Positions 770 through 60,861 of a stretch of 64,000 nt of DNA are shown here, piece after piece. The DNA is from Candidatus Nanosynbacter sp. TM7-053. GTDB taxonomy: Bacteria; Patescibacteriota; Saccharimonadia; Saccharimonadales; Saccharimonadaceae. How positions within the stretch are numbered: position 1 is the first letter of the stretch; each line of letters starts with the position of its first letter. The translations under genes and the position numbers were made by a program. The DNA lies in the NCBI RefSeq assembly GCF_022828375.1, contig NZ_JAJQJX010000002.1:1-64000 (forward strand), given 5' to 3'. Under the pieces are notes generated by a model. It was not told the origin of the DNA and ran no database searches. It saw nothing but the letters and a program-made list of their open reading frames with translations.

Positions 770-775
770 ATTGTA
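770..775 (-). promoter_or_regulatory. -10 box of the DivIC-like gene (leaderless)
   Basis: TACAAT lies 5 bases before the GTG start at 764 on the minus strand. No Shine-Dalgarno precedes the start. Confidence 0.5.
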
Positions 776-820
776 GCAGGAATAGTAAAAATATTCATCT
801 TATGCTTAAAATAGACATGT

Positions 821-826
821 TATAAT
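821..826 (+). promoter_or_regulatory. -10 box before the 834/855 gene
   Basis: TATAAT lies 7 bases before ATG 834. The same transcript also carries GGAGGTGA at 840-847, ahead of a second ATG at 855, so both leaderless and Shine-Dalgarno initiation are conceivable. Confidence 0.55.
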
Positions 827-833
827 ATGGGCT

Positions 834-1334
834 ATGAATGGAGGTGACGAAGCAATGAAAAACGATAATCAAACAGACAATCTTGCGGCAACACAGGAAA
901 ATAGTCAATCGTGGAGTGTAAGTAATAATCAAAATGGCGGCTTGAAATCGATTAGTCAGCCTATGGAAGATGGTATGTGGGGTACTTTTGCTACAAAGCA
1001 TTCTTATTTGGGGAGAATTAAGCTTAAGTCGCGTAGTATATGGGCTGTTCTGTCTATGGTATGCTCCATGGTTCCTGTAATTCTCTGGGCTTATTGCTTT
1101 ATAGCATCTGGCGGTGACACCCAAGAGAATGGTCGAGGTGCAGTTTGGGGGCTTATCTTTTTTTATTATTTTACAGTGGGCTTTCCTCTGTCGGGATTGT
1201 CTATAGTTTTTGGCGCGGCGGGGTTGAATACGAGACTAGATCGGTTAGCGCGCATAAGCCTATCTATCAAGATGTTGACTATATCTGCTGTAACTATATT
1301 AATATTATGGCTTATACTTAAGCCTCGTGTATAA
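834..1334 (+). CDS. small membrane protein, DUF4190-like layout
   Basis: The protein has a polar, Asn/Gln-rich N-terminus of about 75 residues followed by three hydrophobic segments (roughly residues 70-90, 105-130 and 140-162). This recalls short DUF4190-type membrane proteins, but I cannot assign a function. The start is ambiguous. ATG 834 sits 7 bases after TATAAT, whereas ATG 855 follows an excellent Shine-Dalgarno (GGAGGTGA) at a 7-base distance. The first seven codons (MNGGDEA) encode little more than that site, so the 159-residue form from 855 may be the main product. The gene is monocistronic and diverges from the DivIC-like gene. Confidence 0.7.
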   Translation: MNGGDEAMKNDNQTDNLAATQENSQSWSVSNNQNGGLKSISQPMEDGMWGTFATKHSYLGRIKLKSRSIWAVLSMVCSMVPVILWAYCFIASGGDTQENGRGAVWGLIFFYYFTVGFPLSGLSIVFGAAGLNTRLDRLARISLSIKMLTISAVTILILWLILKPRV

Positions 1335-1427
1335 AATCAGGCCGATAAATATATCGGGTACTATAATAATTTATGATTACAAATTTGCTATTAAAAAAAT
1401 GGCGAAAACGCCAAGTTATATAGTTTG

Positions 1428-1503
1428 TGGTGGGGGCGGCTGGGATCGAACCAGCGACCAATCGGTTATGAGCCGACTGCTCTAACCCCTGAGCTACGCC
1501 CCC
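1428..1503 (-). tRNA. tRNA (CAU), probably tRNA-Ile2
   Basis: A 76-base cloverleaf with encoded CCA. The acceptor GGGGGCG/CGCCCCC is fully paired, the D arm is GCTC/GAGC, the anticodon arm GTCGG-CTCATAA-CCGAT, and the T stem GCTGG/CCAGC. The anticodon CAU could read Met, or Ile AUA after lysidine modification. The short D loop and the TTGGTCGCTGG variable and T-stem region resemble the E. coli lysidine-modified tRNA-Ile2. The modifying enzyme gene tilS lies about 3 kb away. The Ile2 call is an inference; elongator Met remains possible. Confidence 0.8.
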
Positions 1504-1533
1504 GTGAGACTTATTATAACGCATCAGGGGTAA

Positions 1534-2904: not shown

Positions 2905-2912
2905 CAAATCTC

Positions 2913-3200
2913 CTAAATTATGGTTTTATAATTTTTATATAAATAAGCCGCGTCAGGATGTAGAGTTTTCATAATGCGTTGTGCTTGGCGGCGGATATCG
3001 GCAGAGGTTATTTCTGGGTGAGTTTCGCACCAATTCATAACGCCCAGAGTGACGGTTTTTGCGATGTCTTGAGCTTGACCTTCTGGCGTACGAACGCTTA
3101 GGCAGGTGGCAATTATGGAATTGTGGAGCTTGTCTGGACTGAACTCCTCTGGCGGTCGCTTTCCTTGCTTGATAACGTCAATTTGACCTGGCTTTACCAT
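2913..3200 (-). CDS. stand-alone ATP-cone domain protein
   Basis: The 95 residues are almost entirely an ATP-cone, the ATP/dATP-sensing domain normally fused to ribonucleotide reductases or to NrdR. Visible elements are VIKQGKRPPEEFSPDKL near the N-terminus, a middle helix around ACLSV, and a C-terminal PEITSADIRRQAQ with a closing DAAYLYKNYK. There is no zinc ribbon (as in NrdR) and no catalytic domain. Its 5' end overlaps the upstream membrane-protein gene by 7 bases, and the flavoprotein gene starts 8 bases downstream, so the three should be co-translated. A regulatory subunit sensing adenine nucleotides for a partner is the natural reading, but the partner is unknown. Confidence 0.8.
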   Translation of the reverse strand: MVKPGQIDVIKQGKRPPEEFSPDKLHNSIIATCLSVRTPEGQAQDIAKTVTLGVMNWCETHPEITSADIRRQAQRIMKTLHPDAAYLYKNYKTII

Positions 3201-3931: not shown

Positions 3932-4070
3932 TTTTGTGTATAAATCCTTCCCTACCAGTGTACCACAAGCGGAATGAAAAGGTAAATAATGACCGAAAAA
4001 GGTATTGCTTTTTTGTCAAATTTATGATAGTATAAAGACAGTTAAATAATTAACACAAAAAGGAAAAAAT

Positions 4071-4286: not shown

Positions 4287-4363
4287 TGGTAGCACCGGGT
4301 GGACCCGAACCACCGACCTCAGGCTTATGAGTCCTGCGCTCTAACCAGCTGAGCTACGGTGCC
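4287..4363 (-). tRNA. tRNA-Met (CAU), probably elongator
   Basis: A 77-base cloverleaf with encoded CCA. The acceptor is GGCACCG/CGGTGCT (G1:U72), the anticodon arm CAGGA-CTCATAA-GCCTG, and the T stem GGTGG/CCACC. The GAGCGCAGGACTCATAA region is typical of elongator tRNA-Met. It ends 75 bases before tilS on the opposite strand. An Ile2 identity is the alternative. Confidence 0.82.
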
Positions 4364-4425
4364 ACACTGCATTGATTGTAACAGATAGTATAAAATTTGC
4401 CAAATACGTTTTAGGTAAATTGTGA

Positions 4426-4431
4426 GATAAT
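4426..4431 (+). promoter_or_regulatory. -10 box of tilS (leaderless)
   Basis: GATAAT ends exactly six bases before GTG 4438, with no Shine-Dalgarno. Confidence 0.5.
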
Positions 4432-4437
4432 GGATAT

Positions 4438-5274
4438 GTGAGATATATTATCGCAGTCAGTGGTGGGATTGATTCGGTAGTTTTGCTGGATTTGATGTCG
4501 CGAACGGAAAAAGATTTAGTGGTTGCTCATTTTGACCACGGAATTCGTGAGGATTCGGCGAGCGATGCTAGATTTGTCGAGGCTTTAGCTGATAGATATA
4601 AAATACAATTTGTTTGTCGGCGTGAAAAGCTGGGAGCTGATGCCAGTGAAGAATTGGCGCGCCAAAGGCGGTATGAATTTTTACGTGGCGTGGCGACGGA
4701 TTTTGATGGCGTGATAGTGACGGCACATCATCGAGATGACATTATTGAAACTGTAGCGATGAATCTTAAGCGTGGCTCCAGATGGCGAGGCTTGGCGGGG
4801 ATGAGTGATAGTCAAATAGTTAGGCCGATGAACGGTTGGACGAAGCAGAGAATTTATGAATATGCGATTCGTCAGAAATTGGAATGGTGTGAAGATGAGA
4901 CAAATCAAAGTGACTTGTATCAGAGAAATAAATTTAGGCGTAAGATAAATCGTGAACTTGATGAATACCAGAAGCTTGGAATATATGAGGCGTGGCGAAA
5001 ACAGAGAGAATTAAGAGGGAAAATTGAGCAGGAAATAGAGAAGTTTGATGGAGAAGTCCTGAGTCGGTATTTTTTGACGATGATAGATGATAATGTCGCA
5101 CAAGAATTGCTATATTATTACGTTTTACGACATTATGATGTGTCGTTACTGGGTTCTCAATTGGAGCGTATGCTAATTGCTATAAAAACTGGAAAAGCTG
5201 GCTCTTGCTGGCAAGTTGGTGGCGGCATTGTGATGAAATTGACACTAAGAAGTGTTATAATAAAGAGAGTTTGA
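4438..5274 (+). CDS. tilS: tRNA(Ile)-lysidine synthase
   Basis: This is an N-type ATP pyrophosphatase with the PP-loop SGGIDS at residues 8-13 and the HFDHGIREDS and VTAHHRDDIIET stretches typical of TilS. It uses ATP and lysine to convert C34 of tRNA-Ile(CAU) to lysidine, which switches it from Met/AUG to Ile/AUA. The 278 residues are short against the 430 of E. coli TilS; the C-terminal substrate-binding TilS_C domain is reduced or absent. GTG 4438 is the start, six bases after GATAAT. Two non-initiator CAU tRNAs lie within 3 kb, one of which should be the substrate. Confidence 0.92.
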   Translation: MRYIIAVSGGIDSVVLLDLMSRTEKDLVVAHFDHGIREDSASDARFVEALADRYKIQFVCRREKLGADASEELARQRRYEFLRGVATDFDGVIVTAHHRDDIIETVAMNLKRGSRWRGLAGMSDSQIVRPMNGWTKQRIYEYAIRQKLEWCEDETNQSDLYQRNKFRRKINRELDEYQKLGIYEAWRKQRELRGKIEQEIEKFDGEVLSRYFLTMIDDNVAQELLYYYVLRHYDVSLLGSQLERMLIAIKTGKAGSCWQVGGGIVMKLTLRSVIIKRV

Positions 5275-9957: not shown

Positions 9958-9977
9958 AAAACCTCATGAGGTATTAT

Positions 9978-12377: not shown

Positions 12378-13088
12378 ATGCCAAGTATTGAAGATCTTAT
12401 TACAAATTATCAGCCAACTGAATCAACAATTGAGTTGGTCAAAAGTACGAAAATTGCGCTGCTTGCGGGAATTTCTGGTGCGGGCAAAGACACGATAAAA
12501 AAACAATTACTGAAGTCGTCAGAGTTTCGCGATATTGTTTCTCACACTACGCGCGCGCCACGCACAAATAACGGATGTGCCGAGCAAGATGGAATTGATT
12601 ATCACTTTATTGATTCGCAAACTGTCGAAAATATGCTACAAAATAATGAATTTATTGAGGCAAAGTTTGTTCACGGTACGGTTTATGGGACGTCGGTGGC
12701 TGAGCTGAAATTAGCGCATGATCAGAACCGCGTGGCAATTACTGACATTGACGTTCAGGGCGTGGAGGAATATGAGCGACTGGCGCCAGATAGCATTGCG
12801 ATTTTCATTGTGCCACCAAATAGCCAAACTTGGATTGAGCGATTAAAAAAGCGTTACGCAACCGAAGAAGATTTTCAAGCGGAGTGGCCAAAGCGTCATG
12901 CCTCGGCGATAAAAGAGTTGGCTTACGCGCTTGAAGTTCCGTATTATCACGTGATTATTAATGACGATTTGGAGCGAGCAATTCGAGTGACCGAGGAAAT
13001 TATTTTGCGCGGCGACGTGTTTAAGCGTCAGGATGATGAGGCGCGTTTGGTAGCTCGAAATCTCCTCAATGATATAATTAATCTATGA
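12378..13088 (+). CDS. guanylate kinase-like protein
   Basis: The 236-residue protein has a P-loop GISGAGKDT (about residues 32-40) and the guanylate-kinase signature SHTTRAPRT followed by DGIDYHF, with the GMP-binding Arg and Tyr in place. The central TDIDVQGVE strand is also typical. It carries an N-terminal extension of about 25 residues and a C-terminal extension relative to the roughly 205-residue Gmk. It phosphorylates GMP, or a related nucleotide. Whether it is the sole Gmk cannot be told here. Its last codons overlap the next gene by 4 bases. Confidence 0.8.
   Translation: MPSIEDLITNYQPTESTIELVKSTKIALLAGISGAGKDTIKKQLLKSSEFRDIVSHTTRAPRTNNGCAEQDGIDYHFIDSQTVENMLQNNEFIEAKFVHGTVYGTSVAELKLAHDQNRVAITDIDVQGVEEYERLAPDSIAIFIVPPNSQTWIERLKKRYATEEDFQAEWPKRHASAIKELAYALEVPYYHVIINDDLERAIRVTEEIILRGDVFKRQDDEARLVARNLLNDIINL
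13073..13078 (+). promoter_or_regulatory. -10 box of the LssY-domain gene (leaderless)
   Basis: TATAAT inside the 3' end of the guanylate kinase-like gene ends six bases before ATG 13085. Confidence 0.55.
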
Positions 13089-14452: not shown

Positions 14453-14490
14453 GGCTTGGCACTCTGCTTGTATGAGTGCTAGATTTGCGA

Positions 14491-14496
14491 TATAAT
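14491..14496 (+). promoter_or_regulatory. -10 box of hrcA (leaderless)
   Basis: TATAAT ends six bases before ATG 14503; there is no Shine-Dalgarno. Confidence 0.6.
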
Positions 14497-14502
14497 TGGA
14501 CT

Positions 14503-15213
14503 ATGACCGAACGTCAACAAGCAATCCTTGTCGCGATTATCGAACAGTACGCTGAAATTGCGGCGCCAGTTGGTAGTGTAACGCTAGCCAAACTGTTTGG
14601 TGTGAGCAGCGCCACGATTCGCAGCGAGATGGCAAAACTTGAGGAGATGGGATTTATTGAGGCGCCCCACACGAGCGCGGGTCGAATTCCGACAGATAAG
14701 GGATATCGTTTTTATGTCAATGGAATCACGGCGGCGCAAATGACGGAATTGCCGAGCGGTATTGATAGCAGTACGAAGGCTATTGAGGCGCACGTCAATT
14801 CAAATGTTGACACTTCAGACAAAGCGATTCGTCGAGCGGTTGATGGTTTGGTGGAAATGACTGGCAATTTTGGTTTTGCGTCATTTGGTTCGAGTTTGTA
14901 TATGAACGGAATGACTCAGTTATTCAGTCAGCCAGAGTTTGGCGATGGCGATCATGTTCAGGCGGTTGCTAAATTGATTGACAATATCGAGCCGTGGCTG
15001 CGTGAAGCGGCACCGGACGAACCGCTAAATGTGTTTATTGGTAGCGAAAACCCAATCGGTAAAAGCAGTGGCGCTACGTTAATTATAAGTAAATTTAAGT
15101 CATCATCTGGTGGCGATAATTACATCGGTGTGATTGGTCCGACGCGACAAAATTATCGTCGAACGATGGAGCTGGTGCGTCGTACGGGTGCGATGCTAGA
15201 GGAGGTATTGTAA
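14503..15213 (+). CDS. hrcA: heat-inducible repressor HrcA
   Basis: The N-terminal winged helix is clear: helix-turn-helix [20 protein letters not shown], then [24 protein letters not shown], the strongest HrcA signature. The C-terminal sensor half is shorter than usual (236 residues in total against about 340), so part of the GAF-like or inserted domain is lost. HrcA binds CIRCE operators; three CIRCE elements lie downstream, before dnaK and dnaJ. ATG 14503 is preferred over an in-frame start at 14476 because it lies six bases after TATAAT. No CIRCE precedes hrcA itself. Confidence 0.92.
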
Positions 15214-15383
15214 TGGCTGAATGGATTGGTGGACTATTAAGCGGTTTGCCGGCGTGGCTGATTGTAATAATTTCAGTAATAATATTTATTATTGGAGCGA
15301 TTTGGATTTTAGCCTTTGATCCTGGTACGGTTGGCGGTGATCCGGTCTTGCCATTTAAAAGGAGGAAAAATGACGAAGAATAA
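15213..15383 (+). CDS. small single-pass membrane protein, 56 residues
   Basis: The ORF starts at ATG 15213 (overlapping the hrcA stop by one base, after GGAGG at 15200-15204) and ends at TAA 15381, overlapping the grpE start by 14 bases. It encodes [11 protein letters not shown], one membrane segment (about residues 12-35) and a short charged tail ending in KRRKNDEE. The good ribosome binding site and tight nesting in the operon support a real gene. No family is recognised. Confidence 0.7.
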   Translation: MAEWIGGLLSGLPAWLIVIISVIIFIIGAIWILAFDPGTVGGDPVLPFKRRKNDEE

Positions 15384-15834
15384 AAAAGCTGAAGATTTAG
15401 AGAAAGAAGTTGCTGAGCTGACGTCGGATCTGCAGCGAACTCGAGCGGATTTTGAGAATTATCGTAAGCGCGTGGATGCAGAAAAGCAATCAGCGCACGA
15501 GTTGGGTCAAACTAAGTCGGTGATGAAATTATTGCCAGTTATTGATACGATTGAGCGAGCTGTTGCCAACGTTCCAGAGGAACTTCAGGATAATGCGTGG
15601 ATTAAGGGTGTGGCTGGTCTGAGTAAGCAACTTGACAAGCAATTGAAGGAGATTGGTTTGGAGAAAATTGACGCCAAACCTGGCACTTTATTTAATCCTG
15701 AATTTCATCAGGCTGTTCAATTTGACGAATCGACGGATGGTGACAAGGAAGTTATTGCCGAAGAGCTTCGCGCCGGCTATACTTTGAACGGCTCAGTTAT
15801 TCGCGACGCAATGGTAAAAGTCACTCGTCAGTAA
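15370..15834 (+). CDS. grpE: nucleotide exchange factor GrpE
   Basis: The 154 residues comprise a long N-terminal coiled coil (about residues 6-60) with the GrpE signature RTRADFENYRKRVD. The beta domain follows, ending in AGYTLNGSVIRDAMVKVT. GrpE releases ADP from DnaK. ATG 15370 follows AAAAGGAGG, a strong ribosome binding site. It is encoded between hrcA and the CIRCE-controlled dnaK. Confidence 0.95.
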   Translation: MTKNKKAEDLEKEVAELTSDLQRTRADFENYRKRVDAEKQSAHELGQTKSVMKLLPVIDTIERAVANVPEELQDNAWIKGVAGLSKQLDKQLKEIGLEKIDAKPGTLFNPEFHQAVQFDESTDGDKEVIAEELRAGYTLNGSVIRDAMVKVTRQ

Positions 15835-15856
15835 TATGATTGCGAAAAAACAGCGA

Positions 15857-15883
15857 TTAGCACTCTTGACATGAGAGTGCTAA
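15857..15883 (+). promoter_or_regulatory. CIRCE operator 1 of dnaK
   Basis: TTAGCACTC-N9-GAGTGCTAA, a perfect HrcA operator. Confidence 0.96.
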
Positions 15884-15894
15884 TTATTTATACT
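15866..15894 (+). promoter_or_regulatory. dnaK promoter
   Basis: TTGACA (15866-15871) lies inside the spacer of CIRCE 1 and TATACT (15889-15894) lies 17 bases on, between the two CIRCE elements. HrcA bound at either operator would cover this promoter. Confidence 0.8.
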
Positions 15895-15901
15895 GAGATA
15901 G

Positions 15902-15928
15902 TTGGCACTCGCCACGAAAGAGTGCTAG
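15902..15928 (+). promoter_or_regulatory. CIRCE operator 2 of dnaK
   Basis: TTGGCACTC-N9-GAGTGCTAG: a second CIRCE with one changed base at each end, just downstream of the expected start of transcription. Confidence 0.92.
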
Positions 15929-15979
15929 AATGAATATAAGATATAGACCAGATGTGATCATAACAGAAAGGGGAATCAT

Positions 15980-17869
15980 ATGGGTAAAATTATTGGTATT
16001 GACCTCGGTACAACCAACAGCGCATTTGCGTATATGTTGGCTGGAAAACCAGAGGTGATTTCTAATGCCGAAGGTAATCGTACTACGCCATCTGTAGTTG
16101 CGGTTAATAAAAAGGGCGAACGACTCGTCGGTCAAGTTGCTCAGCGTCAGCGTGTAACAAACCCAAAAAACACGATTTACGGCGTTAAGCGTTTGATTGG
16201 TCGTAAGTTTGACGACAAGGAAGTACAAAAAGACTTGGATATCATGCCGTACAAGATTGTTAAAAAAGGTACTGGCGTGGCAGTCGAAATGGGCGATAAG
16301 GAATACACGCCAGAAGAAGTTTCAGCAATGATTCTTAGTAAAATCAAGGCTGACGCCGAAGCTTTCTTGGGTGAAAAAGTGACGGAAGCAGTGATTACGG
16401 TGCCAGCTTACTTTGACGATTCACAACGCCAAGCGACTAAGGACGCTGGTAAAATTGCTGGATTGGAAGTTAAGCGTATTATCAACGAACCAACAGCTGC
16501 GGCTTTGGCGTACGGTCTAGAAAAGGGTAAGAATGACGAAACTATCGTGGTGTTCGACCTTGGTGGTGGTACGTTTGACGTGTCTGTACTAGAGCTAGGT
16601 GACGGGGTATTTGAAGTTAAAGCAACCAATGGTGATACACACCTTGGTGGTGAAGATTTCGACAATGTTATTGTCAATTACTTCTTGGACGACTTCAAGT
16701 CAAAGGAGGGAATTGATCTTCGCAAGGATAATGCAGCGATGCAGCGCTTGAAGGACGAGGCTGAAAAGGCAAAGAAAGAATTATCAACGGTTACGGAGTA
16801 TGAAGTCAACATTCCATTTATTACCGCTGATGCCGATGGTCCAAAGCACTTTGAGATGAGCTTGAGTCGCGCTAAGCTGGAGGATTTGGTTAAGGATCTA
16901 TTGGATCGCTTAGATGGTCCAGTAGAAAAGGCTTTGAAGGATGCTAAACTTTCTAAGTCCGACATTAACAATGTAGTTATGGTTGGTGGAATGACTCGTA
17001 TGCCAGCTGTGGTTGAGCGTGTGAAGAATTTCTTTGGAAAAGATCCAATGCAAGGCGTGAACCCAGATGAGGTTGTGGCTGTTGGTGCTGCAATTCAAGG
17101 TGGTGTCTTGGCTGGTGATGTTAAGGATGTGTTACTTCTGGATGTGACTCCGCTTTCTCTTGGAATTGAGACGATGGGCGGTGTATCGACTAAGTTGATT
17201 GATCGAAACACTACAATTCCAACAAGCAAGAGTGAAGTTTTCTCAACAGCTGCTGATAACCAGCCTCAGGTGGAAATTCATGTTCTTCAGGGTGAGCGCG
17301 AGTTTGCTAATGACAATAAGAGTTTGGGTCGTTTTGTGCTTGATGGTATTGCGCCAGCACCGCGCGGCGTGCCTCAAATTGAAGTGACCTTTAACATTGA
17401 CGCCAACGGTATTCTTAACGTTACGGCTAAAGACAAGGGAACCGGCAAAGAGCAATCAATCACTATCCAAAACTCTGGCAATATGAGTAAGGAAGATATT
17501 GAGAAGGCACAAAAAGAAGCCGAACTTCACGCGGACGAAGATAAGAAAAAGCGCGAAACTGTCGATACAAAGAATCAGCTTGAAAACGCTATTTATCAGG
17601 CAAAGAAAATGCCAGACGAGTTCAAGGATAAGATTTCTGACGACGACAAGCAAGCGATTGAAAAGGCTGTCGAAGAGGCTGAAAAGCACAAAGATTCTGA
17701 AGATAAGGACGAATTGGATGCTGCAATTAAAGCTTTGAATGACGCTATTATGCCAATCGGGGCTAAGATGTATCAACAATCAGCCGACGATAAAAAAGCC
17801 GACGAAGCTAGCGACAAAAAGTCTGATAAAGACGAGCCGGTCGAAGGCGAAATTGTCGACGAAAAATAA
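15980..17869 (+). CDS. dnaK: Hsp70 chaperone DnaK
   Basis: The 629-residue protein has the full Hsp70 layout. The nucleotide-binding domain has [13 protein letters not shown] at the N-terminus, [14 protein letters not shown] near residue 190 and [13 protein letters not shown] near residue 335. The substrate-binding domain ([17 protein letters not shown]) and an acidic C-terminal lid follow. It folds and protects proteins with DnaJ and GrpE. AAAGGGG precedes ATG 15980. Two CIRCE elements and a promoter control it, and a terminator hairpin follows. Confidence 0.98.
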
Positions 17870-17888
17870 ACCTAACGTCTTTACAAAG

Positions 17889-17919
17889 AAGGCTGCTCGA
17901 TAAAAAGAGCGGCCTTTTT
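17889..17919 (+). terminator. rho-independent terminator after dnaK
   Basis: AAGGCTGCTC pairs with GAGCGGCCTT (one G-U pair), followed by T residues. Confidence 0.85.
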
Positions 17920-17923
17920 GGAC

Positions 17924-17950
17924 TTAGCACTCTTGCACTGAGAGTGCTAA
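17924..17950 (+). promoter_or_regulatory. CIRCE operator of dnaJ
   Basis: TTAGCACTC-N9-GAGTGCTAA, a perfect CIRCE placed just upstream of TATAAT at 17956-17961, in position to block the dnaJ promoter. Confidence 0.96.
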
Positions 17951-17955
17951 ACGCG

Positions 17956-17961
17956 TATAAT
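17956..17961 (+). promoter_or_regulatory. -10 box of dnaJ
   Basis: TATAAT lies 9 bases before ATG 17971, so the mRNA would have almost no leader. The CIRCE lies immediately upstream, over the -35 region. Confidence 0.6.
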
Positions 17962-17970: not shown

Positions 17971-19080
17971 ATGAGCAAGCGTGATTATTATGAAATATTG
18001 GGCGTTCCAAAGACCGCTTCCGAAGATGAGATAAAAAAGGCTTTTCGTAAATTGGCAATTAAATATCATCCTGACAAACAGGGTGGCGACGAGGCTAAGT
18101 TTAAGGAAATTAATGAAGCTTATGAAGTTCTGAAAGACAAACAGAAGCGACAGCGTTATGATCAATTTGGTCATGCTGGCGTTGGCGGTGCTTCTGGCGG
18201 CGGTTTTTCCGGTAATCCGTTTGAAGGGTTTGGTGGATTTGGCGGTCAAAACGTTCACTTTGATTTTGGTGACGGTGGACTAGGTGATATTTTTAGCCAA
18301 TTCTTCGGTGGTGCGGCTAGTGGCACTGGAAATGGTCGTTCGCGTGGACGTGATGTTGAAACTAGTGTAACACTAAGTTTTGAGGACGCGGTATTTGGTG
18401 TAGAAAAGAAAATTAGTTTAATGCTGGATGTTGAATGTGAGCATTGCCATGGCGATGGCGCTGAGCCAGGGTTTGGAATGAAAACGTGCCCAACTTGTAA
18501 GGGCGCGGGTCAGCAAACTCGAACGATGAATTCGCTGTTTGGGCAAATTCGGCAGGCGGTTGTTTGTGAAACTTGTCACGGTAAGGGAAAAGTTCCTGAA
18601 AAAGAATGTTCAGTTTGTCGAGGAAAAGGCACGACCCGACAGAATCAGGATATCACTATTAAAATTCCGGCGGGAATTGATGATGGCGCGACAATTCGTC
18701 TGCGTGGTCGTGGCGAAGCAGTTGCTGGTGGCAGTAGAGGTGATTTGTATGTCCATATTCGCGTTAAGGCGCATAAAAAATTCACTCGTGAGGGTAATAT
18801 TATTCTTAGCGAAGAACATATTTCTATGGTTGATGCGGCGCTGGGAACGGAGATTGATGTAGAGACTGTGGACGGCATAATAACGATGAAAATCCCAGCA
18901 GGCACTCAGAGCGGTACCGACTTCAAGTTGTCAGGTCATGGCGTGCCGCACTTACATAGCGAATCTCGTGGTCCGCATATTGTGGGTGTTATTGTTGATA
19001 CGCCAACCAAATTGACCAAAAAACAAAAGGAGCTTTTGGAGCAGTTTAAGGGTGCGAAAAAACGAGGACTGTTTTCCTAG
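17971..19080 (+). CDS. dnaJ: co-chaperone DnaJ (Hsp40)
   Basis: The 369 residues comprise a J domain with HPD (residues 33-35), a Gly/Phe-rich linker, and a zinc-binding domain with four CxxCxGxG-type repeats ([32 protein letters not shown]). The C-terminal substrate-binding beta domains follow. DnaJ delivers clients to DnaK and stimulates its ATPase. It is transcribed separately from dnaK, with its own CIRCE. Confidence 0.97.
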
Positions 19081-22284: not shown

Positions 22285-22290
22285 CATAAT
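22285..22290 (+). promoter_or_regulatory. -10 box of the RimB-like gene
   Basis: CATAAT lies 8 bases before ATG 22299, with no Shine-Dalgarno. Confidence 0.45.
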
Positions 22291-22298: not shown

Positions 22299-22805
22299 AT
22301 GAAAGAAAAAACCATTATTGGGTCGACTGAGCTTGTGGATTTTGGCAAGCGAGCGCAAAAAGTCCCAGCTAAAATTGATACGGGCGCCGATTCCAGTGCG
22401 GTTTGGGCGAGCAATATTCGCATTGATAAAGATGGTGTATTGAAATTTTCTCTATTTGGTAAGGGTTCGCCGTATTATAATGGTAAGATATTTAAGAGAA
22501 CTGATTATTCTGTGGCTAGCGTACGCTCTGCAATGGGTCAAAATCAGATTCGTTATCGAACGCACTTTTGGGTGAAGCTTGGCGGGCGAAAAATTAAAAT
22601 GCTGATGAATTTGTCTGATCGGTCGAAGAATGAATTTCCGGTGTTAATCGGAAGACGGTCGATTTCTGGAAAATTCCTAGTGGATGTTTCAAGAAAAAAT
22701 GTTCGCAGGAAAAAACCGTCCGTAACTGCTAGTCTTAATGAAGAAGTAAAATTGAATCCATACGAATTTTATAAAAAATATCATCAGAAAGGTGAAGAAA
22801 AGTAA
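22299..22805 (+). CDS. RimB-like putative retropepsin-fold protease
   Basis: The 168 residues match the Zn_protease/RimB family (PF05618 as I remember it). The family motif KIDTGADSSAVWA lies near residues 26-38, with PVLIGRRS near residue 118. In this fold DTGAxxS is the aspartic-protease-like site. Family members sit beside rimK; RimB has been reported to trim the poly-glutamate tails that RimK adds. It directly precedes and overlaps rimK by one base (TAATG), supporting a functional pair. Confidence 0.85.
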   Translation: MKEKTIIGSTELVDFGKRAQKVPAKIDTGADSSAVWASNIRIDKDGVLKFSLFGKGSPYYNGKIFKRTDYSVASVRSAMGQNQIRYRTHFWVKLGGRKIKMLMNLSDRSKNEFPVLIGRRSISGKFLVDVSRKNVRRKKPSVTASLNEEVKLNPYEFYKKYHQKGEEK

Positions 22806-23734: not shown

Positions 23735-23740
23735 TATAAT
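23735..23740 (+). promoter_or_regulatory. -10 box of the DUF192 gene (leaderless)
   Basis: TATAAT ends six bases before ATG 23747. Confidence 0.6.
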
Positions 23741-24893: not shown

Positions 24894-24899
24894 TATACT
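24894..24899 (+). promoter_or_regulatory. -10 box of comEC (leaderless)
   Basis: TATACT ends six bases before ATG 24906. Confidence 0.55.
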
Positions 24900-29012: not shown

Positions 29013-29018
29013 TATAAT
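29013..29018 (+). promoter_or_regulatory. -10 box of ruvC (leaderless)
   Basis: TATAAT ends six bases before ATG 29025. Confidence 0.6.
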
Positions 29019-29024: not shown

Positions 29025-29498
29025 ATGAGAATTATCGGGATTGACCCAGGAACGGGAATTTTGGGGTTTGGTGTGATTGATTTTTCTCGTGGCAAGTTCA
29101 AGATGGTCACGGCGGGAGTTGTGACGACGCCGGCACATACGCCAATTGACGAAAGGCTTGAAGATATTTTCGATAGCCTGACCGAGATTATTGCCGAAAC
29201 AAATCCTGATGTTATGTCGATTGAAAAGCTATTTTTTGCGCGCAATGTTACGACGGCGATTTCTGTGGCGGAAGCACGCGGCGTGGCGATGTTGACTGGG
29301 CGAAAAGCTGGAATGCCGATTGCTGAATATACGCCGCTACAAATAAAGCAAACTTTGACCGGCTATGGCAAGGCTGATAAAAAGCAGGTCCAGGAAATGG
29401 TGCGACTTAATTTGGGTTTGAAAGATGTTCCGAAGCCGGATGACTGCGCGGATGCTTTGGCTGCAGCAATTACACACGCGGCGATGAATCGGGTATAA
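29025..29498 (+). CDS. ruvC: Holliday-junction endonuclease RuvC
   Basis: The 157 residues have the RNase H-like fold with four acidic catalytic positions: Asp in GIDPGTG (residue 7), Glu in SIEKLFF, and two Asp in PDDCADALAAAI near the C-terminus. RuvC resolves Holliday junctions bound by RuvAB. ATG 29025 (MRIIGIDPG) is chosen over an in-frame start at 28962 that overlaps the previous gene, because it fits the family N-terminus and the TATAAT-N6 pattern. ruvA starts 8 bases after its stop, yet with its own box. Confidence 0.95.
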   Translation: MRIIGIDPGTGILGFGVIDFSRGKFKMVTAGVVTTPAHTPIDERLEDIFDSLTEIIAETNPDVMSIEKLFFARNVTTAISVAEARGVAMLTGRKAGMPIAEYTPLQIKQTLTGYGKADKKQVQEMVRLNLGLKDVPKPDDCADALAAAITHAAMNRV

Positions 29499-29499
29499 T
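29494..29499 (+). promoter_or_regulatory. -10 box of ruvA (leaderless)
   Basis: TATAAT overlaps the end of ruvC (its last sense codon and stop) and ends six bases before ATG 29506. Confidence 0.6.
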
Positions 29500-30696: not shown

Positions 30697-30702
30697 TATA
30701 AT
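30697..30702 (+). promoter_or_regulatory. -10 box of ruvB (leaderless)
   Basis: TATAAT ends six bases before ATG 30709. Confidence 0.6.
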
Positions 30703-34728: not shown

Positions 34729-34734
34729 TATAAT
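34729..34734 (+). promoter_or_regulatory. -10 box of the PH-domain gene (leaderless)
   Basis: TATAAT ends six bases before ATG 34741. Confidence 0.6.
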
Positions 34735-34740: not shown

Positions 34741-35577
34741 ATGAATCCACAAACATCCTCGTCGGAAGATTTAACACAGCCTGTTGCGTACGATGCTGAT
34801 GGCCGCCCGCTATATCATCATCCACCGCAAACTGGTCGCCCAGCTCCAGTTGTGGCGCAGACGAATTCTTATGTGACGGCAAGGCCGGAAATTATCGATG
34901 GGGAAAATTTTGATCCACGATTGCGTAGTCAATATGCCAATGAGCCGCAAGTTGTCCATGTTGCCAGGGATATTGACCCGAAGCCATTTACTATTAGCGA
35001 TGATCTGAAACAAAAACACGAAAAATCAGTTCAGCAATACCCGAATCTCAATTTGAGCGAAGGCGAATATATCATTTTGGACATTAAACGTCATCCGATT
35101 GGTATGCTAATCCCGACGGGAATTTCGGTTTTCTTGGTGGTGATGATTATGGTGTTTGTGATGTTTTATCCGTCAATTGCTCGTGACGCAATTATCTCGC
35201 CGATGCCTTCACTGACCGATGTGTTTGGCGTGGCAATGTTGCTTATTGGGCTGGTTGCGCTTGGTGGTGCGGTGTCCTTGTGGATATATTTGCAAAATCA
35301 CTTTTACATGACAAACGAAAGTGTGATTCAGGAAATCCAGGGTAGTTTATTTTATCGGCACGAGCAAACGGTGAGCTTAGGCAGCATTGAGGATGCAAGC
35401 TTCCTCCAATCAGGCATTATTCAGACTCTTTTCAATTATGGCACGATTCGCCTCAGCACCGAAGGTGAAGAAACGACATATATATTCCATTTTGTGGCAA
35501 ATCCACGCAAGCAAATTGCGATAATAAATAATGCCATTGAAGACTTTAAGAATGGTCGTCCTGTTTGTGATGATTAG
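34741..35577 (+). CDS. membrane protein with bacterial PH domain
   Basis: The 278 residues have a Pro/Gln-rich N-terminal segment of about 100 residues, two membrane segments (about 118-140 and 156-182), and a C-terminal bPH_2 (YdbS-like) domain. The latter reads YMTNESVIQEIQGSLFYRHEQTVSLGSIEDASF, ending in NYGTIRLSTEG. Such proteins occur widely in membranes of monoderms; the molecular role is not established. It converges on the pilin gene, whose stop lies 4 bases away. Confidence 0.8.
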   Translation: MNPQTSSSEDLTQPVAYDADGRPLYHHPPQTGRPAPVVAQTNSYVTARPEIIDGENFDPRLRSQYANEPQVVHVARDIDPKPFTISDDLKQKHEKSVQQYPNLNLSEGEYIILDIKRHPIGMLIPTGISVFLVVMIMVFVMFYPSIARDAIISPMPSLTDVFGVAMLLIGLVALGGAVSLWIYLQNHFYMTNESVIQEIQGSLFYRHEQTVSLGSIEDASFLQSGIIQTLFNYGTIRLSTEGEETTYIFHFVANPRKQIAIINNAIEDFKNGRPVCDD

Positions 35578-35581: not shown

Positions 35582-35974
35582 TTATTTATGGCGACTTTCT
35601 TTTACGTAGTCATCTTCATCGACAAGCGTCGCAACAAGTTTGTATGACTTACATTTTCCGTCATTACAATTTGAAGATTCATAGCGGTAACTGCTGTCTT
35701 TTTCGCCAATTTTCTTACCTTGCGGGTCTTTTAACAACGCGGGATCCATAGTCGGAAGCGTACCTTCTTCTAACTTCTCTGGGTAATAGCCGTTTTTAAC
35801 GTAAAAACCTTCTTCCAGGCTATAATGCATGGCGTTAATCGCGGTGCGTTTTTTGGCATTGTTTGATTCGTTGGTCAATTTTGTATATTGTGAGAAACCT
35901 AAGATTGCGATAATAATCAAGAAAGTCGCTACAACCAAAAGTTCAATAATAGTAAAACCGTTTCGCTTATTCAT
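35582..35974 (-). CDS. type IV pilin
   Basis: The 130-residue prepilin has the leader MNKRNG followed by FTIIELLVVATFLIIIAIL: cleavage after Gly, N-methyl-Phe at position 1 and Glu5 are all canonical. The C-terminal domain is small and carries two Cys (CNDGKC), a likely disulfide. It could be a main pilin subunit for the T4P machine encoded at 38.3-44.5 kb. It is encoded alone, upstream of and opposite to recA. Confidence 0.88.
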   Translation of the reverse strand: MNKRNGFTIIELLVVATFLIIIAILGFSQYTKLTNESNNAKKRTAINAMHYSLEEGFYVKNGYYPEKLEEGTLPTMDPALLKDPQGKKIGEKDSSYRYESSNCNDGKCKSYKLVATLVDEDDYVKESRHK

Positions 35975-36008
35975 GAATGTAATTATAGCAAATCTTGCGA
36001 CAAATCGG

Positions 36009-36041: not shown

Positions 36042-37097
36042 ATGGCAAAATCAGACAGTAAAACAGTAAATCCAGAAAAGTCAAGTCAGGCATCGGATAA
36101 AAAAGTTGATGAAGGTAAGCTTAAGGCGCTTGGTCTAGCGATGGATCAAATCACCAAGCAATTTGGCGACGGATCAATTATGAAATTGGGCGAGGCTCAT
36201 AAAGTTGATGTTGAAGTAATTCCTTCTGGTGCTTTGAGTTTGGATTTGGCGCTTGGTGGCGGATATCCAAAAGGTCGTATTATAGAAATTTATGGTCCAG
36301 AAAGCTCGGGTAAGACAACATTGACGCTTCACGCTATTGCAGAAATTCAGAAGCAGGGTGGAACGGCAGCGTTTATTGATGCCGAGCACGCGCTTGATCC
36401 AGCATACGCTAAGCGTCTGGGCGTGGACACGGAAAATTTGTTGGTTTCTCAGCCAGATAACGGCGAGCAAGCATTGGAAATTACGGAAACGTTGGTTCGT
36501 TCGAACGCGGTGGATTTGGTGATAGTTGACTCGGTAGCTGCCTTGACGCCACAGGCTGAAATTGATGGCGATATGGGTGACTCTCATATGGGTCTTCAGG
36601 CTCGATTGATGAGTCAGGCTCTACGTAAATTGACGGGAATTATTAATAAGTCAAAAGCTACGGTGATCTTTATCAATCAGATTCGTATGAAAATTGGCGT
36701 GATGTTTGGCAATCCTGAAACGACAACTGGCGGTAATGCCTTGAAATTTTACGCGTCGCAGCGAATTGACATTCGTCGAATTGGTCAGATTAAAGTTGGC
36801 GATGATATTATTGGTAACCGCACGAAAATTAAGGTCGTGAAAAATAAGATCGCACCGCCGTTCCGCGTGGCTGAATTTGACATTATGTACAACGAGGGAA
36901 TCAGTAAAACTGGCGATATTCTGGACTTGGCGGCAACGCATGGTATAATTGAAAAGTCGGGTGCATTTTATAAATATAACGGCGAAACGATTGGTCAAGG
37001 GCGCGACAAAACGAAGAATTATTTGAAGGAAAATCCTGAGGTTCTGGCGGAAATTGACCAGAAGGTTCGGGAGAAAGTAAAAGAAGGAGAAAACTAA
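36042..37097 (+). CDS. recA: recombinase RecA
   Basis: The 351 residues have the full RecA core: Walker [10 protein letters not shown] near residue 88, Walker [11 protein letters not shown], the L1/L2 loops including [15 protein letters not shown], and the C-terminal domain (a lysine-rich N-terminal extension precedes the core). RecA pairs homologous DNA during repair and natural transformation. It is followed, with a one-base overlap, by a 2H phosphoesterase gene, and then by recX, its usual modulator. Confidence 0.98.
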
Positions 37098-37652: not shown

Positions 37653-37658
37653 TATAAT
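37653..37658 (+). promoter_or_regulatory. -10 box of recX (leaderless)
   Basis: TATAAT ends six bases before ATG 37665. Confidence 0.6.
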
Positions 37659-38318: not shown

Positions 38319-38902
38319 TCGACTTTTGTAGATTCTGGCTGCGGACGAGGCTGCTTGCGGAATGGATTTTCGTATGAATTTATTTGCGGAATAGGTGTTT
38401 TTTCGGCTATGTGCGAGATAGTTGCTGATTTTACAACAATTTTATCGTCGGTTACTCTTATAATCTGAGAACGATGAATAAGTAGCTCTGTGTCGCCAAA
38501 ACTTTTCAAGAACGGTCGCCGAATTCGGAGTTGTTGTATAATAAAATTCCCAGCCGCCAACGTATATCCGATAACTTTTCCGATTTTCTTATTTTTTTCA
38601 TCAATAACCAACTTGTCTTTTAATGTAAAATTGATGTCATAAATTTCTTTTATAGTAATCACATCATCAATTCCGATAATCTCGTCAGTCGAATCGATAA
38701 TCATACCGAGCGGCCCAATTTCTCTGACGTCGTCAATGCGAAGTAAACTAGGATGTTGGTCCAAAAGCCGCCCCTCGAGCTCATATGCGATTATAGACAA
38801 ATTCCTCGGATTGATAATTTCCCGCGATGTTCGCGCCAGTTCGGAGCCCGTCTGAAGACTCATGACGGGAATATCAAGGAAGCGATCTGCGGATATAAGC
38901 AT
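38315..38902 (-). CDS. PRC-barrel domain protein
   Basis: The 195 residues hold two PRC-barrel-like halves: MSLQTGSELARTSREIINP (about residues 15-80) and INFTLKDKLVIDEKNKKIGKVIGYTL (about 95-165). A Pro/Gln-rich tail follows. PRC barrels are small beta modules found in RimM and photosynthetic reaction centres, and in many CPR proteins. It is the last gene of the T4P cluster, 24 bases after the small membrane gene, but a role in the pilus is not established. Confidence 0.72.
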   Translation of the reverse strand: MLISADRFLDIPVMSLQTGSELARTSREIINPRNLSIIAYELEGRLLDQHPSLLRIDDVREIGPLGMIIDSTDEIIGIDDVITIKEIYDINFTLKDKLVIDEKNKKIGKVIGYTLAAGNFIIQQLRIRRPFLKSFGDTELLIHRSQIIRVTDDKIVVKSATISHIAEKTPIPQINSYENPFRKQPRPQPESTKVD

Positions 38903-38926
38903 AACTATATTATAAACGGTTACGTT

Positions 38927-44533: not shown

Positions 44534-44539
44534 TATAAT
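44534..44539 (+). promoter_or_regulatory. -10 box of tsaE (leaderless)
   Basis: TATAAT ends six bases before GTG 44546. Confidence 0.6.
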
Positions 44540-56241: not shown

Positions 56242-56248
56242 ATTGTCT

Positions 56249-56254
56249 ATTATA
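56249..56254 (-). promoter_or_regulatory. -10 box of murT (leaderless)
   Basis: TATAAT on the minus strand ends 7 bases before ATG 56241. It lies only about 20 bases from the divergent box at 56274. Confidence 0.55.
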
Positions 56255-56273
56255 CTCTGCCGGGCCGATGTGC

Positions 56274-56279
56274 TACAAT
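56274..56279 (+). promoter_or_regulatory. -10 box of the 56286 gene (leaderless)
   Basis: TACAAT ends six bases before ATG 56286. Confidence 0.55.
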
Positions 56280-56285
56280 ATCAAT

Positions 56286-56666
56286 ATGTTTTTGGTGGGT
56301 ATCTTTCAGTGGTGGTATGGCAATGGCTTGTTGCAATATATCCGACAAAGTTTTCTGGGGGTTTTACGAACCGCGGATTTTTTCTCAGTCGGGCTACTTT
56401 TGAAAACCTTATTCAATCCGTTTCGCCAGATTTCAGCTGCTCCAGTTGGCGGCGACTTATCTGTGCAGCTATCTGCGTTTTTTGACAAAATGTTCTCGCG
56501 AGCAATTGGTGCGGTGGTGCGCTCCATGGTGATAATTGTCGGGATATTGATGATATTGCTACGATTTTTATGGATGATTGTAGGAATTATTATGTGGCTG
56601 GCGCTGCCGCTGATGCCGTTTATCGGAATTATTTTATGGCAAATGGGAGTTTCTGTATGGAAATAG
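56286..56666 (+). CDS. small membrane protein coupled to a Clp-like ATPase
   Basis: The 126-residue protein has hydrophobic segments at about residues 20-40 and 75-120 (two closely spaced) and no catalytic motif. ATG 56286 is chosen because it lies six bases after TACAAT. Its stop lies 10 bases inside the next gene, the membrane-tethered AAA+ protein, so the two are made together and may form one membrane complex. Confidence 0.72.
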   Translation: MFLVGIFQWWYGNGLLQYIRQSFLGVLRTADFFSVGLLLKTLFNPFRQISAAPVGGDLSVQLSAFFDKMFSRAIGAVVRSMVIIVGILMILLRFLWMIVGIIMWLALPLMPFIGIILWQMGVSVWK

Positions 56667-59107: not shown

Positions 59108-59177
59108 CTCAGCCGCTCGACTAGTGTTTTTATGATTGTCATTATAAATAAAAACCCGTCATAATGACGAGCTATTT

Positions 59178-59254
59178 TGGTACACCCGGCAAGATTCGAA
59201 CTTGCGACCCCTTGGTTCGAAGCCAAGTACTCTAATCCGCTGAGCTACGGGTGC
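59178..59254 (-). tRNA. tRNA-Arg (UCG)
   Basis: The acceptor is GCACCCG/CGGGTGT, the anticodon arm CTTGG-CTTCGAA-CCAAG with anticodon TCG, the T stem GCAAG/CTTGC, and CCA is encoded. Confidence 0.95.
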
Positions 59255-59296
59255 GTATGAAGTTATTATAACATAGATGACGTGTGAGTAAAATGA

Positions 59297-59302
59297 TATA
59301 CT
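59297..59302 (+). promoter_or_regulatory. -10 box of murB (leaderless)
   Basis: TATACT ends six bases before ATG 59309. Confidence 0.6.
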
Positions 59303-59308
59303 ATATGC

Positions 59309-60334
59309 ATGGACGTTATGACTAATATATCACTGAAACAATACACAACTATGAAATTGGGAGGTGAGACTCGCTATATGGCGACAGCGGATTCTGCTGG
59401 TGATGTTGTGTCGCTATATCGTAATGCCCGAAAGGAAAATTTGCCGATTTTTGTGTTGGGTGGTGGCAGTAATGTGATTACGCATGACGAGGTTTTTGAG
59501 GGAATCGTACTGTTGAATAAGATTAAAGGTTTTGAGGTTATCTCTGAAACTGACGAAACAACTGATGTGAAAATTGGTGCGGGCGAAGTCTGGGATGAGG
59601 TTGTTGAGAAGGCTATTGAGCTTGGACTTCAGGGAATTGAGGCTATGTCGGGAATTCCTGGGACGGCTGGAGCTGCGCCGGTCCAGAACGTTGGGGCGTA
59701 CGGTCAAGAAATTGCCGACACGTTGATTAGTCTGGAAGCTTACGATTCAAAAACCGACACAATTGTAACTATTTCCGCTGACGAATGTGATTTTTCTTAT
59801 CGAAACAGCATTTTTCGCGACAAGGAAAAAGGGCGATATTGCATTCTGAATATTACTTTGCGACTAAATAAATCAGAGCCGAAACCGCCGTATTACGCTT
59901 CTTTGCAGAAATATATTGACGAGAATGATATTCGTGAGGTCAATTTGTCGGTGATTCGCGTGGCAGTTCTTAATATTCGTTCGGAAAAATTGCCAGATCC
60001 AGCGGAATTGCCAAGTGCAGGTTCTTTCTTCAAAAATGCGCTGGTTGAAAAATGGAAATTGGAAGAATTGCAAAAAGAATATAGCGACATTCCAAATTAT
60101 GCGATGTCCGACGGAAGATATAAAATCCCGACAGGTTGGTTGATAGATAAGGCTGGCTTAAGGGGTTATCGCAGTCACGGCATGCGAGTTTACGAAAAGA
60201 ACGCGTTGGTACTCGTGAACGATTCGGCAACAGGATATGATGATTTGGCGGCGATTCGTGAGGAAATTGTACAGATTGTCTTTGACAAGTTCGGTATAAA
60301 AATTGAGCAAGAGCCGCTAGAACTTTCCCGATAA
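59309..60334 (+). CDS. murB: UDP-N-acetylenolpyruvoylglucosamine reductase
   Basis: The 341-residue FAD enzyme has FVLGGGSNVITHDEVFEG (FAD binding), GIPGTAGAAPVQNVGAYGQE, and the catalytic Ser in PSAGSFFKN near residue 235. It reduces the enolpyruvyl ether to UDP-MurNAc. The length and the YRNSIFRD segment suit type I MurB. The start lies six bases after TATACT. Confidence 0.96.
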   Translation: MDVMTNISLKQYTTMKLGGETRYMATADSAGDVVSLYRNARKENLPIFVLGGGSNVITHDEVFEGIVLLNKIKGFEVISETDETTDVKIGAGEVWDEVVEKAIELGLQGIEAMSGIPGTAGAAPVQNVGAYGQEIADTLISLEAYDSKTDTIVTISADECDFSYRNSIFRDKEKGRYCILNITLRLNKSEPKPPYYASLQKYIDENDIREVNLSVIRVAVLNIRSEKLPDPAELPSAGSFFKNALVEKWKLEELQKEYSDIPNYAMSDGRYKIPTGWLIDKAGLRGYRSHGMRVYEKNALVLVNDSATGYDDLAAIREEIVQIVFDKFGIKIEQEPLELSR

Positions 60335-60363
60335 TAAGCATATGCTTTTTTGTAGATTTGCGC

Positions 60364-60369
60364 TACAAT
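60364..60369 (+). promoter_or_regulatory. -10 box of the minor-pilin operon (leaderless)
   Basis: TACAAT ends six bases before ATG 60376. Confidence 0.6.
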
Positions 60370-60375
60370 ATTGAT

Positions 60376-60861
60376 ATGAATCGTGGGACGGGTGGCTATA
60401 CGATAATAGAATTGGCGATAGTAGTGGTGGTTGTTGCAATTTTGGCTAGCATTGCCTTTGTTGGTGGTGGAAGATTTTTGAACTTAACCAAAGATCAGGA
60501 GCAGAGGGCTGATGTGTCTGAGCTGTCTTTGAGGTTGGAGCGATATTACAAGTATAAAAATGTTAGTGCTATCGGACACGAATATCCCTCCTGTGCTGAT
60601 TTAATTAAGGATTTTTCGTCAATTGTAGGAAGTGATTCTCTGAAAAAGGAGATGATCAAGTGTAATCGTAGTGATTGGGCTGGCGGTAGTAATGGTGAGT
60701 TATTGTATGAAGCTTCGAATGTGGATGACGGCGATTGCACGAAGCCTGCATCCAGTCCTGTGTCTGATGTTGTAGCGGTAACTTGTGTGAAATATAGCAT
60801 TATATATAAAGAGTTTTCAACAGGAGTAGAGAAGAAGGTGGATAGTATATGGCGCGACTAG
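60376..60861 (+). CDS. type IV pilin-like protein (minor pilin 1)
   Basis: The 161-residue prepilin has the leader MNRGTGG, then YTIIELAIVVVVVAILASI, with Glu5 present and Tyr at position 1. Two to four Cys occur in the globular part. ATG 60376 is chosen over an upstream in-frame start at 60358 because it lies six bases after TACAAT and gives a normal short prepilin leader. First of four overlapping genes. Confidence 0.85.
   Translation: MNRGTGGYTIIELAIVVVVVAILASIAFVGGGRFLNLTKDQEQRADVSELSLRLERYYKYKNVSAIGHEYPSCADLIKDFSSIVGSDSLKKEMIKCNRSDWAGGSNGELLYEASNVDDGDCTKPASSPVSDVVAVTCVKYSIIYKEFSTGVEKKVDSIWRD

Follow-up and report, generated by a model that had tools for sequence, protein, structure and literature searches.

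Genes and adjacent hexamers in the window

The 64-kb stretch of DNA analysed here (the window, at its full length) is AT-rich, with a GC content of 0.43, and its sequence indicates that its source is a member of the Saccharibacteria (TM7). The subject of this analysis is a hexamer resembling the bacterial -10 promoter element TATAAT, found immediately before the start codons of genes in the window and in related genomes, at a distance that would let polymerase begin the message at the start codon itself. The original prediction had named 14 plus-strand genes with such a hexamer ending exactly six nucleotides (nt) before ATG or GTG, and all 14 have it (nine exact, five with one mismatch). The looser sites given there were also found as claimed, namely 5 nt at 764 (minus strand), 7 nt at murT (56241, minus strand), 8 nt at 22299 (CATAAT) and 9 nt at 17971. 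Further starts of this kind lie at 38902 (minus strand, 6 nt) and at 834 (plus strand) and 35974 (minus strand), both at 7 nt, and an open reading frame (ORF) of 91 amino acids (aa) at 9966 has a hexamer at 8 nt. The hexamers, with the starts that they precede, are:

4426..4431, plus strand, candidate -10 hexamer GATAAT, 6 nt before GTG 4438, tilS (TilS by NCBIfam)
13073..13078, plus strand, candidate -10 hexamer TATAAT, 6 nt before ATG 13085, LssY_C protein; inside the upstream ORF 12378-13088
14491..14496, plus strand, candidate -10 hexamer TATAAT, 6 nt before ATG 14503, hrcA
17956..17961, plus strand, candidate -10 hexamer TATAAT, 9 nt before ATG 17971, dnaJ
22285..22290, plus strand, CATAAT, 8 nt before ATG 22299, zinc-protease-like protein
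23735..23740, plus strand, candidate -10 hexamer TATAAT, 6 nt before ATG 23747, DUF192
24894..24899, plus strand, candidate -10 hexamer TATACT, 6 nt before ATG 24906, comEC
29013..29018, plus strand, candidate -10 hexamer TATAAT, 6 nt before ATG 29025, ruvC
29494..29499, plus strand, candidate -10 hexamer TATAAT, 6 nt before ATG 29506, ruvA
30697..30702, plus strand, candidate -10 hexamer TATAAT, 6 nt before ATG 30709, ruvB
34729..34734, plus strand, candidate -10 hexamer TATAAT, 6 nt before ATG 34741, no family
37653..37658, plus strand, candidate -10 hexamer TATAAT, 6 nt before ATG 37665, recX
44534..44539, plus strand, candidate -10 hexamer TATAAT, 6 nt before GTG 44546, tsaE
56274..56279, plus strand, TACAAT, 6 nt before ATG 56286, 126-aa ORF, no family
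59297..59302, plus strand, TATACT, 6 nt before ATG 59309, murB
60364..60369, plus strand, TACAAT, 6 nt before ATG 60376, pilin-like
821..826, plus strand, candidate -10 hexamer TATAAT, 7 nt before ATG 834
770..775, minus strand, TACAAT, 5 nt before GTG 764
35982..35987, minus strand, candidate -10 hexamer TATAAT, 7 nt before ATG 35974, no family
38909..38914, minus strand, candidate -10 hexamer TATAAT, 6 nt before ATG 38902, no family
56249..56254, minus strand, candidate -10 hexamer TATAAT, 7 nt before ATG 56241, murT

The gene names proposed earlier are borne out: TilS, ComEC, RuvC, RuvA and TsaE are NCBIfam matches, RuvB, MurB and MurT are Pfam matches, and HrcA and RecX match NCBIfam under its curated cut-off as well as Pfam. 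The protein at 60376 has a pilin-type N-methylation motif that scores slightly below the Pfam cut-off, and a Pfam search gave no family for 34741, 56286, 834, 764, 35974 and 38902. That these starts have no Shine–Dalgarno (SD) site holds for 13 of the 14, which show no SD-like 4-mer or longer in the 20 nt upstream, and fails for 23747, where AGGT lies 2 nt from the ATG. The claim that two modes of initiation coexist is supported: the gene at 36042 (recA of the original prediction) has an SD site, SD genes are common, and the anti-SD at the 3′ end of 16S rRNA is intact in relatives (13 of 13 loci showing that end, from 19 taken).

Several samples were used for comparison. The nearest comparison genome (G001) has 32% of sampled 31-mers in common with the window; its class and phylum, which we take to be Saccharimonadia and Patescibacteria, are those meant in all genome counts, and its family is referred to as f1. 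The f1 sample comprises 47 stretches, the window included, and 967 kb. Whole-genome counts used 177 of 379 genomes, namely 37 of the class and the first-listed genome for each of 140 other families of the phylum. A set of ruvB loci was formed from the best 80 of 567 related loci, among which the RuvB of OX335598.1 is closest to that of the window (98% identity); by title, 61 are Saccharibacteria, Saccharimonadia or TM7, 15 are named 'bacterium' only, three are Nomurabacteria and one is Chloroflexi. The negative control was 200 kb of Escherichia coli K-12, processed with identical scripts. Spacing is expressed as k, the number of nucleotides between the end of the hexamer and the start codon, with k5 and k12 as control spacings; reversed-pattern controls were dropped because they depend on composition.

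Excess over chance and a hard edge at six nucleotides

On both strands of the window, TATAAT-N_k-[AG]TG occurs 1, 0, 2, 1, 1, 5, 10, 3, 2, 2, 1, 4, 2, 2, 0 and 0 times for k = 0 to 15. The 10 occurrences at k = 6 compare with a mean of 1.83 and a maximum of 7 in 200 order-2 Markov resamples of the window, and each of the 10 begins an ORF of 100 aa or more, which none of the nine at k = 2 to 5 does. For the degenerate pattern TANNNT-N6-[AG]TG, the excess that had been expected is absent from the window when no gene is required (58 at k = 6, 47–85 at other spacings) and appears after conditioning on ORFs, with 15 of 59 window genes at k = 6 and 1–10 at other spacings.

The larger samples give the same picture. 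The genome-wide check proposed earlier came out positive in G001, where exact TATAAT was counted 60 times at k = 6, 12 times at k = 5 and 6 times at k = 12. In 879 genes of family f1, exact TATAAT was found 2, 2, 77, 29, 15, 10 and 6 times for k = 4 to 10. When ATGs lying k nt past TATAAT are taken from the 967 kb of f1, those opening ORFs of at least 100 aa number 0/12, 2/20, 71/87 and 30/44 for k4 to k7, then 15/23, 16/29 and 8/21 for k8 to k10. In the 80 ruvB loci, the hexamer-spaced starts that open ORFs are 0/9 at k5, 87/95 at k6 and 38/48 at k7. The E. coli sample showed no spacing peak (0/1 at k6 in the ORF test). Over the 37 genomes of the class, exact TATAAT sums to 1485 at k6, 256 at k5 and 325 at k12, with k6 the largest of the three in 37/37. 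A hexamer at a fixed distance of about 6–7 nt before the start codon, above chance, is a mark of bacterial leaderless genes, and these counts show it here.

It might still be argued that TATAAT-like words before ATG are to be expected in an AT-rich genome and were picked by eye, and the behaviour of TANNNT without the gene condition is in keeping with this. The resampling result, the ORFs opened by every k6 match in the window, the sums over 37 genomes and the lack of the signal in 200 kb of E. coli leave chance with practically no probability.

The step between 5 and 6 nt is predicted by a transcription start point 7 nt past the box: at a spacing of 5 nt the RNA would lack the initial base of the start codon, and at 7–10 nt a leader of 1–4 nt would be left.

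Promoter anatomy and heat-shock operators

Among the 77 exact 6-nt cases of f1, T (73%) and G (77%) stand at positions -15 and -14, that is, the TGn of an extended -10 element, and T, T and G reach 48, 49 and 42% at -35 to -33, a weak -35 box at the standard 17-bp spacer. With boxes at k = 7–10, TG accompanies the hexamer in 42 of 66 cases, and in 9 of 66 TTG lies 23 nt upstream of it, more often than at any other offset (the next has 6). TGn, and more weakly TTG, hold their distance to the hexamer rather than to the ATG. At -1, directly before the start codon, 64 of the 77 box genes have a pyrimidine, compared with 97 of 218 SD genes (p = 2e-9).

Two of the boxes adjoin an operator of heat-shock control. 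The controlling inverted repeat of chaperone expression (CIRCE), with the consensus TTAGCACTC-N9-GAGTGCTAA, occurs in the window as two perfect copies and two copies with two mismatches (mean of 0.01 expected); within 14456-17950, one precedes hrcA, two stand in tandem before the ORF at 15980, and one precedes dnaJ, so that the inverted repeat of HrcA/CIRCE control is found before all three. The copies next to boxes are:

14456..14482, plus strand, CIRCE operator with 2 mismatches, separated by 8 bp from the hrcA -10 hexamer downstream
17924..17950, plus strand, perfect CIRCE operator, separated by 5 bp from the dnaJ -10 hexamer downstream

Whereas the operator of Bacillus lies in the leader, the hrcA and dnaJ copies are found on the upstream side of the putative -10 box, and a repressor bound there should block polymerase. 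The extended -10, the -35 (weak as it is) and the operator place the hexamer in a promoter, as in leaderless genes elsewhere.

The hexamer also occupies the position of an SD site in AT-rich DNA, and it could act at the mRNA level, as a ribosome-binding element unlike SD and similar to that of Bacteroidota, with the promoter farther upstream. Initiation of the Bacteroidota type is defined by weak SD use and an AT-rich upstream signal without promoter features; here, the anti-SD of relatives is intact, SD genes are common and promoter features are present. TGn and the TTG at 17 bp are features of DNA promoters and track the hexamer, CIRCE abuts it at two genes, and the hard 6-nt edge with its one-sided tail fits a start point. 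Moreover, the hexamer is depleted inside operons (see below), where a translation signal would be needed equally. A translation signal is very unlikely for these reasons. Among 31 relatives, initiation factor IF3 was found in 29, S1 domains in 31 and sigma-70 region 4 in 30; loss of the anti-SD, of IF3 or of S1 was considered as an explanation and rejected on these counts and on the 13 intact 16S ends. The YchF domain is present in 29 of the 31 and also in 10 of 14 control genomes. YchF is reported to promote leaderless translation and to be kept in the candidate phyla radiation (CPR); the accessible part of that report does not say that CPR use leaderless messages (PMC12641178).

A closer competitor keeps the same promoters and holds that transcription, also where the spacing is 6 nt, usually starts 1–5 nt ahead of the start codon, giving ultra-short leaders. 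This account, which overlaps with a start at the codon itself, gains from the spacings of 7–10 nt in f1, which jointly nearly match 6 nt (60 against 77 genes), and from the fact that initiation points can shift by about a base. It is harder to reconcile with a peak at the smallest spacing that keeps the ATG in the RNA, given a start point 7 nt from the box, or with the pyrimidine in 64/77, which is expected if the purine of the ATG is the first base. As the usual case, it seems rather unlikely. The spacing 'exactly six' is thus the commonest value in f1 and no rule, and some messages may carry leaders of 1–4 nt.

Operon position and the start of ruvB

For the f1 genes, 'room upstream' was defined as a divergent neighbour or a gap of at least 40 nt and 'tight' as a gap below 15 nt, gaps in between being excluded. 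A box at 6 or 7 nt precedes 72 of 504 genes with room upstream and 9 of 252 tight operon genes (p = 2e-6). SD sites run in the opposite direction, with 118/504 and 105/252, respectively.

The ruvB locus allows the comparison within one gene. A start codon stands at the aligned place in 77 of the 80 relatives, the other three being dropped; boxes were scored with one mismatch allowed and a spacing of 5–10 nt, and operon position meant that an open frame of 100 codons or more lies upstream, with its end at most 40 nt before or at most 20 nt after the start. The box is present at 35 of 42 loci with room and at 8 of 35 in operon position (p = 1.6e-7), and an SD site at 0 of 43 loci with a box and 12 of 34 without. 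In both comparisons, the hexamer marks mainly the first genes of transcription units, the pattern expected of leaderless genes.

The same alignment bears on whether the start codons are right. If an ATG 6 nt past a box were incidental, with the real start downstream, the box would belong to a normal promoter with a leader, and some starts do rest on the reading of the ORF alone (56286 has no family). However, the N-terminus of RuvB at the aligned start is MAIE in 51/77 and MGIE in 10/77, with and without a box (the latter judged by eye), and the matches to the RuvC and RuvA models begin at residue 1 or 3. Systematic misplacement of the starts is most improbable.

OX335598.1, the closest relative, starts its ruvB with GTG and carries AGGAG in place of the box (its 4960-5010). 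This swap implies that the two modes are exchangeable over short distances and points to a recent exchange of initiation mode.

Conservation across homologues and neighbouring genes

Conservation was scored as a hexamer at 6–9 nt with one mismatch and a shift of the start of at most eight codons, a procedure in which false positives and false negatives both occur. The hexamer is kept in 48 of 49 assessable loci homologous to 35974 (minus strand), in 28 of 30 for 34741 and in 22 of 27 for 38902 (minus strand). It is also kept in dnaJ (8/8), hrcA (3/3), murB (2/2), tilS (3/5), 23747 (2/3), tsaE (2/3), 22299 (2/4), comEC (2/4) and 13085 (1/2), and in ruvA (41/59), ruvB (44/81) and ruvC (24/49). 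For recX, four of 33 relatives have it at 6–9 nt and one more at 5 nt, leaving 28 without; it is absent from the single homologue of 764 (minus strand, 0/1) and from those of 36042 (0/18). No homologous locus of 56286, 60376, 834 or murT was found among the sequences compared.

The two Pfam-less proteins at 35582-35974 (130 aa) and 34741-35577 (278 aa), whose box arrangement is nearly always kept, adjoin 36042. The start codons of murT (56241, minus strand) and of the ORF at 56286 (plus strand) are 44 bp apart (56242-56285), with two divergent -10 boxes of the leaderless type between them; as read from the sequence, the upstream part of each promoter must overlap the other's. A second divergent pair with adjacent boxes is found at 764-834, with 764 (minus strand) at 5 nt and 834 (plus strand) at 7 nt. 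A tRNA gene with a CAT anticodon (minus strand) adjoins tilS (plus strand; 4287-4438), and three CAT tRNAs lie in the first 4.4 kb; one of the three may be the Ile2 tRNA modified by TilS.

Extent across family, class and phylum

The extent of the arrangement was measured as the excess over background of one-mismatch boxes at 6–10 nt, as a share of genes of at least 100 aa. It amounts to 22% in the window, 20% in G002, 27% in G006, 11% in G010, 25% in G271, 27% in G001, 29% in G017 and 15% in G019, so that these eight f1 samples span 11–29%; the value for E. coli is -3%. The 124 matches of G010 were suspected of being a repeat or non-genic, which was rejected: in 100 kb, 9 of 13 open ORFs of at least 100 aa, and their sequences differ.

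In the 140 other families of the phylum, exact TATAAT sums to 3154 at k6, 1539 at k5 and 1359 at k12; k6 is the largest count in 114/140, and 46 families are individually at p <0.001 (uncorrected). Outside the class, the signal is weaker but widespread. For G185, a sample of 80 kb had suggested an 8-nt lineage; counted over the whole genome, the peak is at 6 (95, then 67 and 46).

Interpretation of the hexamers

Taken together, the hard edge, the TGn and TTG that track the hexamer, the CIRCE operators, the depletion inside operons and the pyrimidine–purine step at the start codon support the original prediction that promoters abut start codons. The hexamers are very probably -10 elements of promoters for the housekeeping sigma factor, from which polymerase would start at, or a few bases from, the first base of the start codon.

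Not all observations favour this. The box of 764 lies at 5 nt, under the usual edge; TANNNT without the ORF condition shows no preferred spacing in the window; and the -35 is weak, full TTG being in place in 8 of 77 cases, no commoner than at -18 or -16 (nine each), the TTG at -16 overlapping the TG of the extended -10. A plasmid of Deinococcus deserti, run as a positive control with a crude gene finder, gave a weak response (8 of 124 genes at k6, at most 4 at other spacings). Conservation is uneven, the hexamer being lacking in 28/33 loci for recX, 37/81 for ruvB and 25/49 for ruvC, and the ruvB of the closest relative has an SD-like AGGAG in its place. The low share in G010 and the 26 of 140 other families in which k5 or k12 equals or exceeds k6 weigh on the same side.

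Under the promoter reading, the full layout would consist of a weak TTG (-35), 17 bp, TGn-TATAAT, 5 nt, a pyrimidine and the ATG. Transcription would start at the first base of the start codon (A or G) and yield a leaderless message, or, at spacings of 7–10 nt, one with a leader of 1–4 nt. Leaderless messages would be translated without SD pairing, and genes internal to operons would use SD sites or coupling.

A family with the edge at five nucleotides

One family of the phylum, f130, departs from the common spacing. Its four genomes together give 32, 266, 164, 88 and 75 matches for k4 to k8 and 38 for k12, compared with 134, 101, 710, 347, 236 and 104 in eleven other genomes, which were chosen: four belong to f1 and seven to families in which k6 clearly stands out. 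The k5 count exceeds k6 in all four f130 genomes, so that their edge is shifted down by one base. Over 300 kb from three of them, 19 of 23 ATGs at k5 begin an ORF of 100 aa or more, and the excess share at 5–9 nt is 30%. For G338, the whole genome has 64 matches at k5 and 53 at k6; three of its short contigs (17 kb) gave 2/3 at k6 and no match at k5, numbers too small to offset the whole-genome counts. A stop-codon artefact was rejected as the source of the k5 peak, since the use of genetic code 25 changes little. In f39 (19, 25 and 12 at k6, k5 and k12) and f127 (17, 24 and 18), k5 is also the largest count, without a comparable contrast.

From these counts, we infer that the preferred start point of the f130 polymerase may have moved by one base. 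A broader proposition, about evenly balanced between right and wrong, is that leaderless initiation is general, and perhaps ancestral, in all Patescibacteria/CPR and that the distance from box to start evolves with the start-point choice of the polymerase (mostly 6, in f130 5).

Relation to known leaderless systems

Leaderless initiation is of a known kind, and the unusual part here is the shift in spacing in one lineage. In Deinococcus-Thermus, a -10 motif about 6–7 bp before the ORF was found for about 30% of ORFs and shown to act as a -10 region (PMC12340547). The box distance and the presence of SD genes alongside are alike in the two cases. They differ in the motif, which in Deinococcus-Thermus is TANNNT, mostly TACACT (PMC12340547), and here is near-consensus TATAAT with a strong TGn, and in that the present case concerns another phylum, with small genomes, known from sequence alone. 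The same study also scanned bacteria of 'common phyla' (Fig. S7 of PMC12340547). Earlier, Zheng et al. (2011) described a Pribnow-like signal about 12 bp before the start in many bacteria and read it as a mark of leaderless genes; among these TA-like signals, a TG extension was seen in Lactococcus, similar to the TGn here, and 'TM7' is not named in the main text (PMC3160421). GeneMarkS-2 (Lomsadze 2018) has a class of leaderless bacteria, as cited in PMC9581028, whose main text does not contain the term 'candidate phyla'. Two studies of cultured Saccharibacteria employ the tuf, rpsJ or arcA promoters and, in the text available, are silent on start points (PMC10633639, PMC12815258). Our literature search, which covered mainly papers available without subscription, found no report of leaderless initiation in Patescibacteria or Saccharibacteria. 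By the counts given above, the leaderless arrangement appears to be widespread in Patescibacteria too.

Meaning for Patescibacteria

Patescibacteria are credited with more than a quarter of bacterial diversity (PMC12815258), and cultured members are few. Should between a tenth and a third of their genes be leaderless, annotated start codons may frequently be wrong; in the window, the longest-ORF rule would make hrcA, ruvC and 60376 too long. The design of expression constructs for these organisms should then take leaderless starts into account, and antibiotics that discriminate between leadered and leaderless messages (PMC9581028) may act on them unevenly. The finding also bears on whether leaderless initiation is ancient. 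Finally, the hard edge would allow the transcription start point of uncultured lineages to be read from sequence: if the distance does follow the polymerase, the position of the start codon would tell, from the genome alone, where the polymerase of such a lineage starts.

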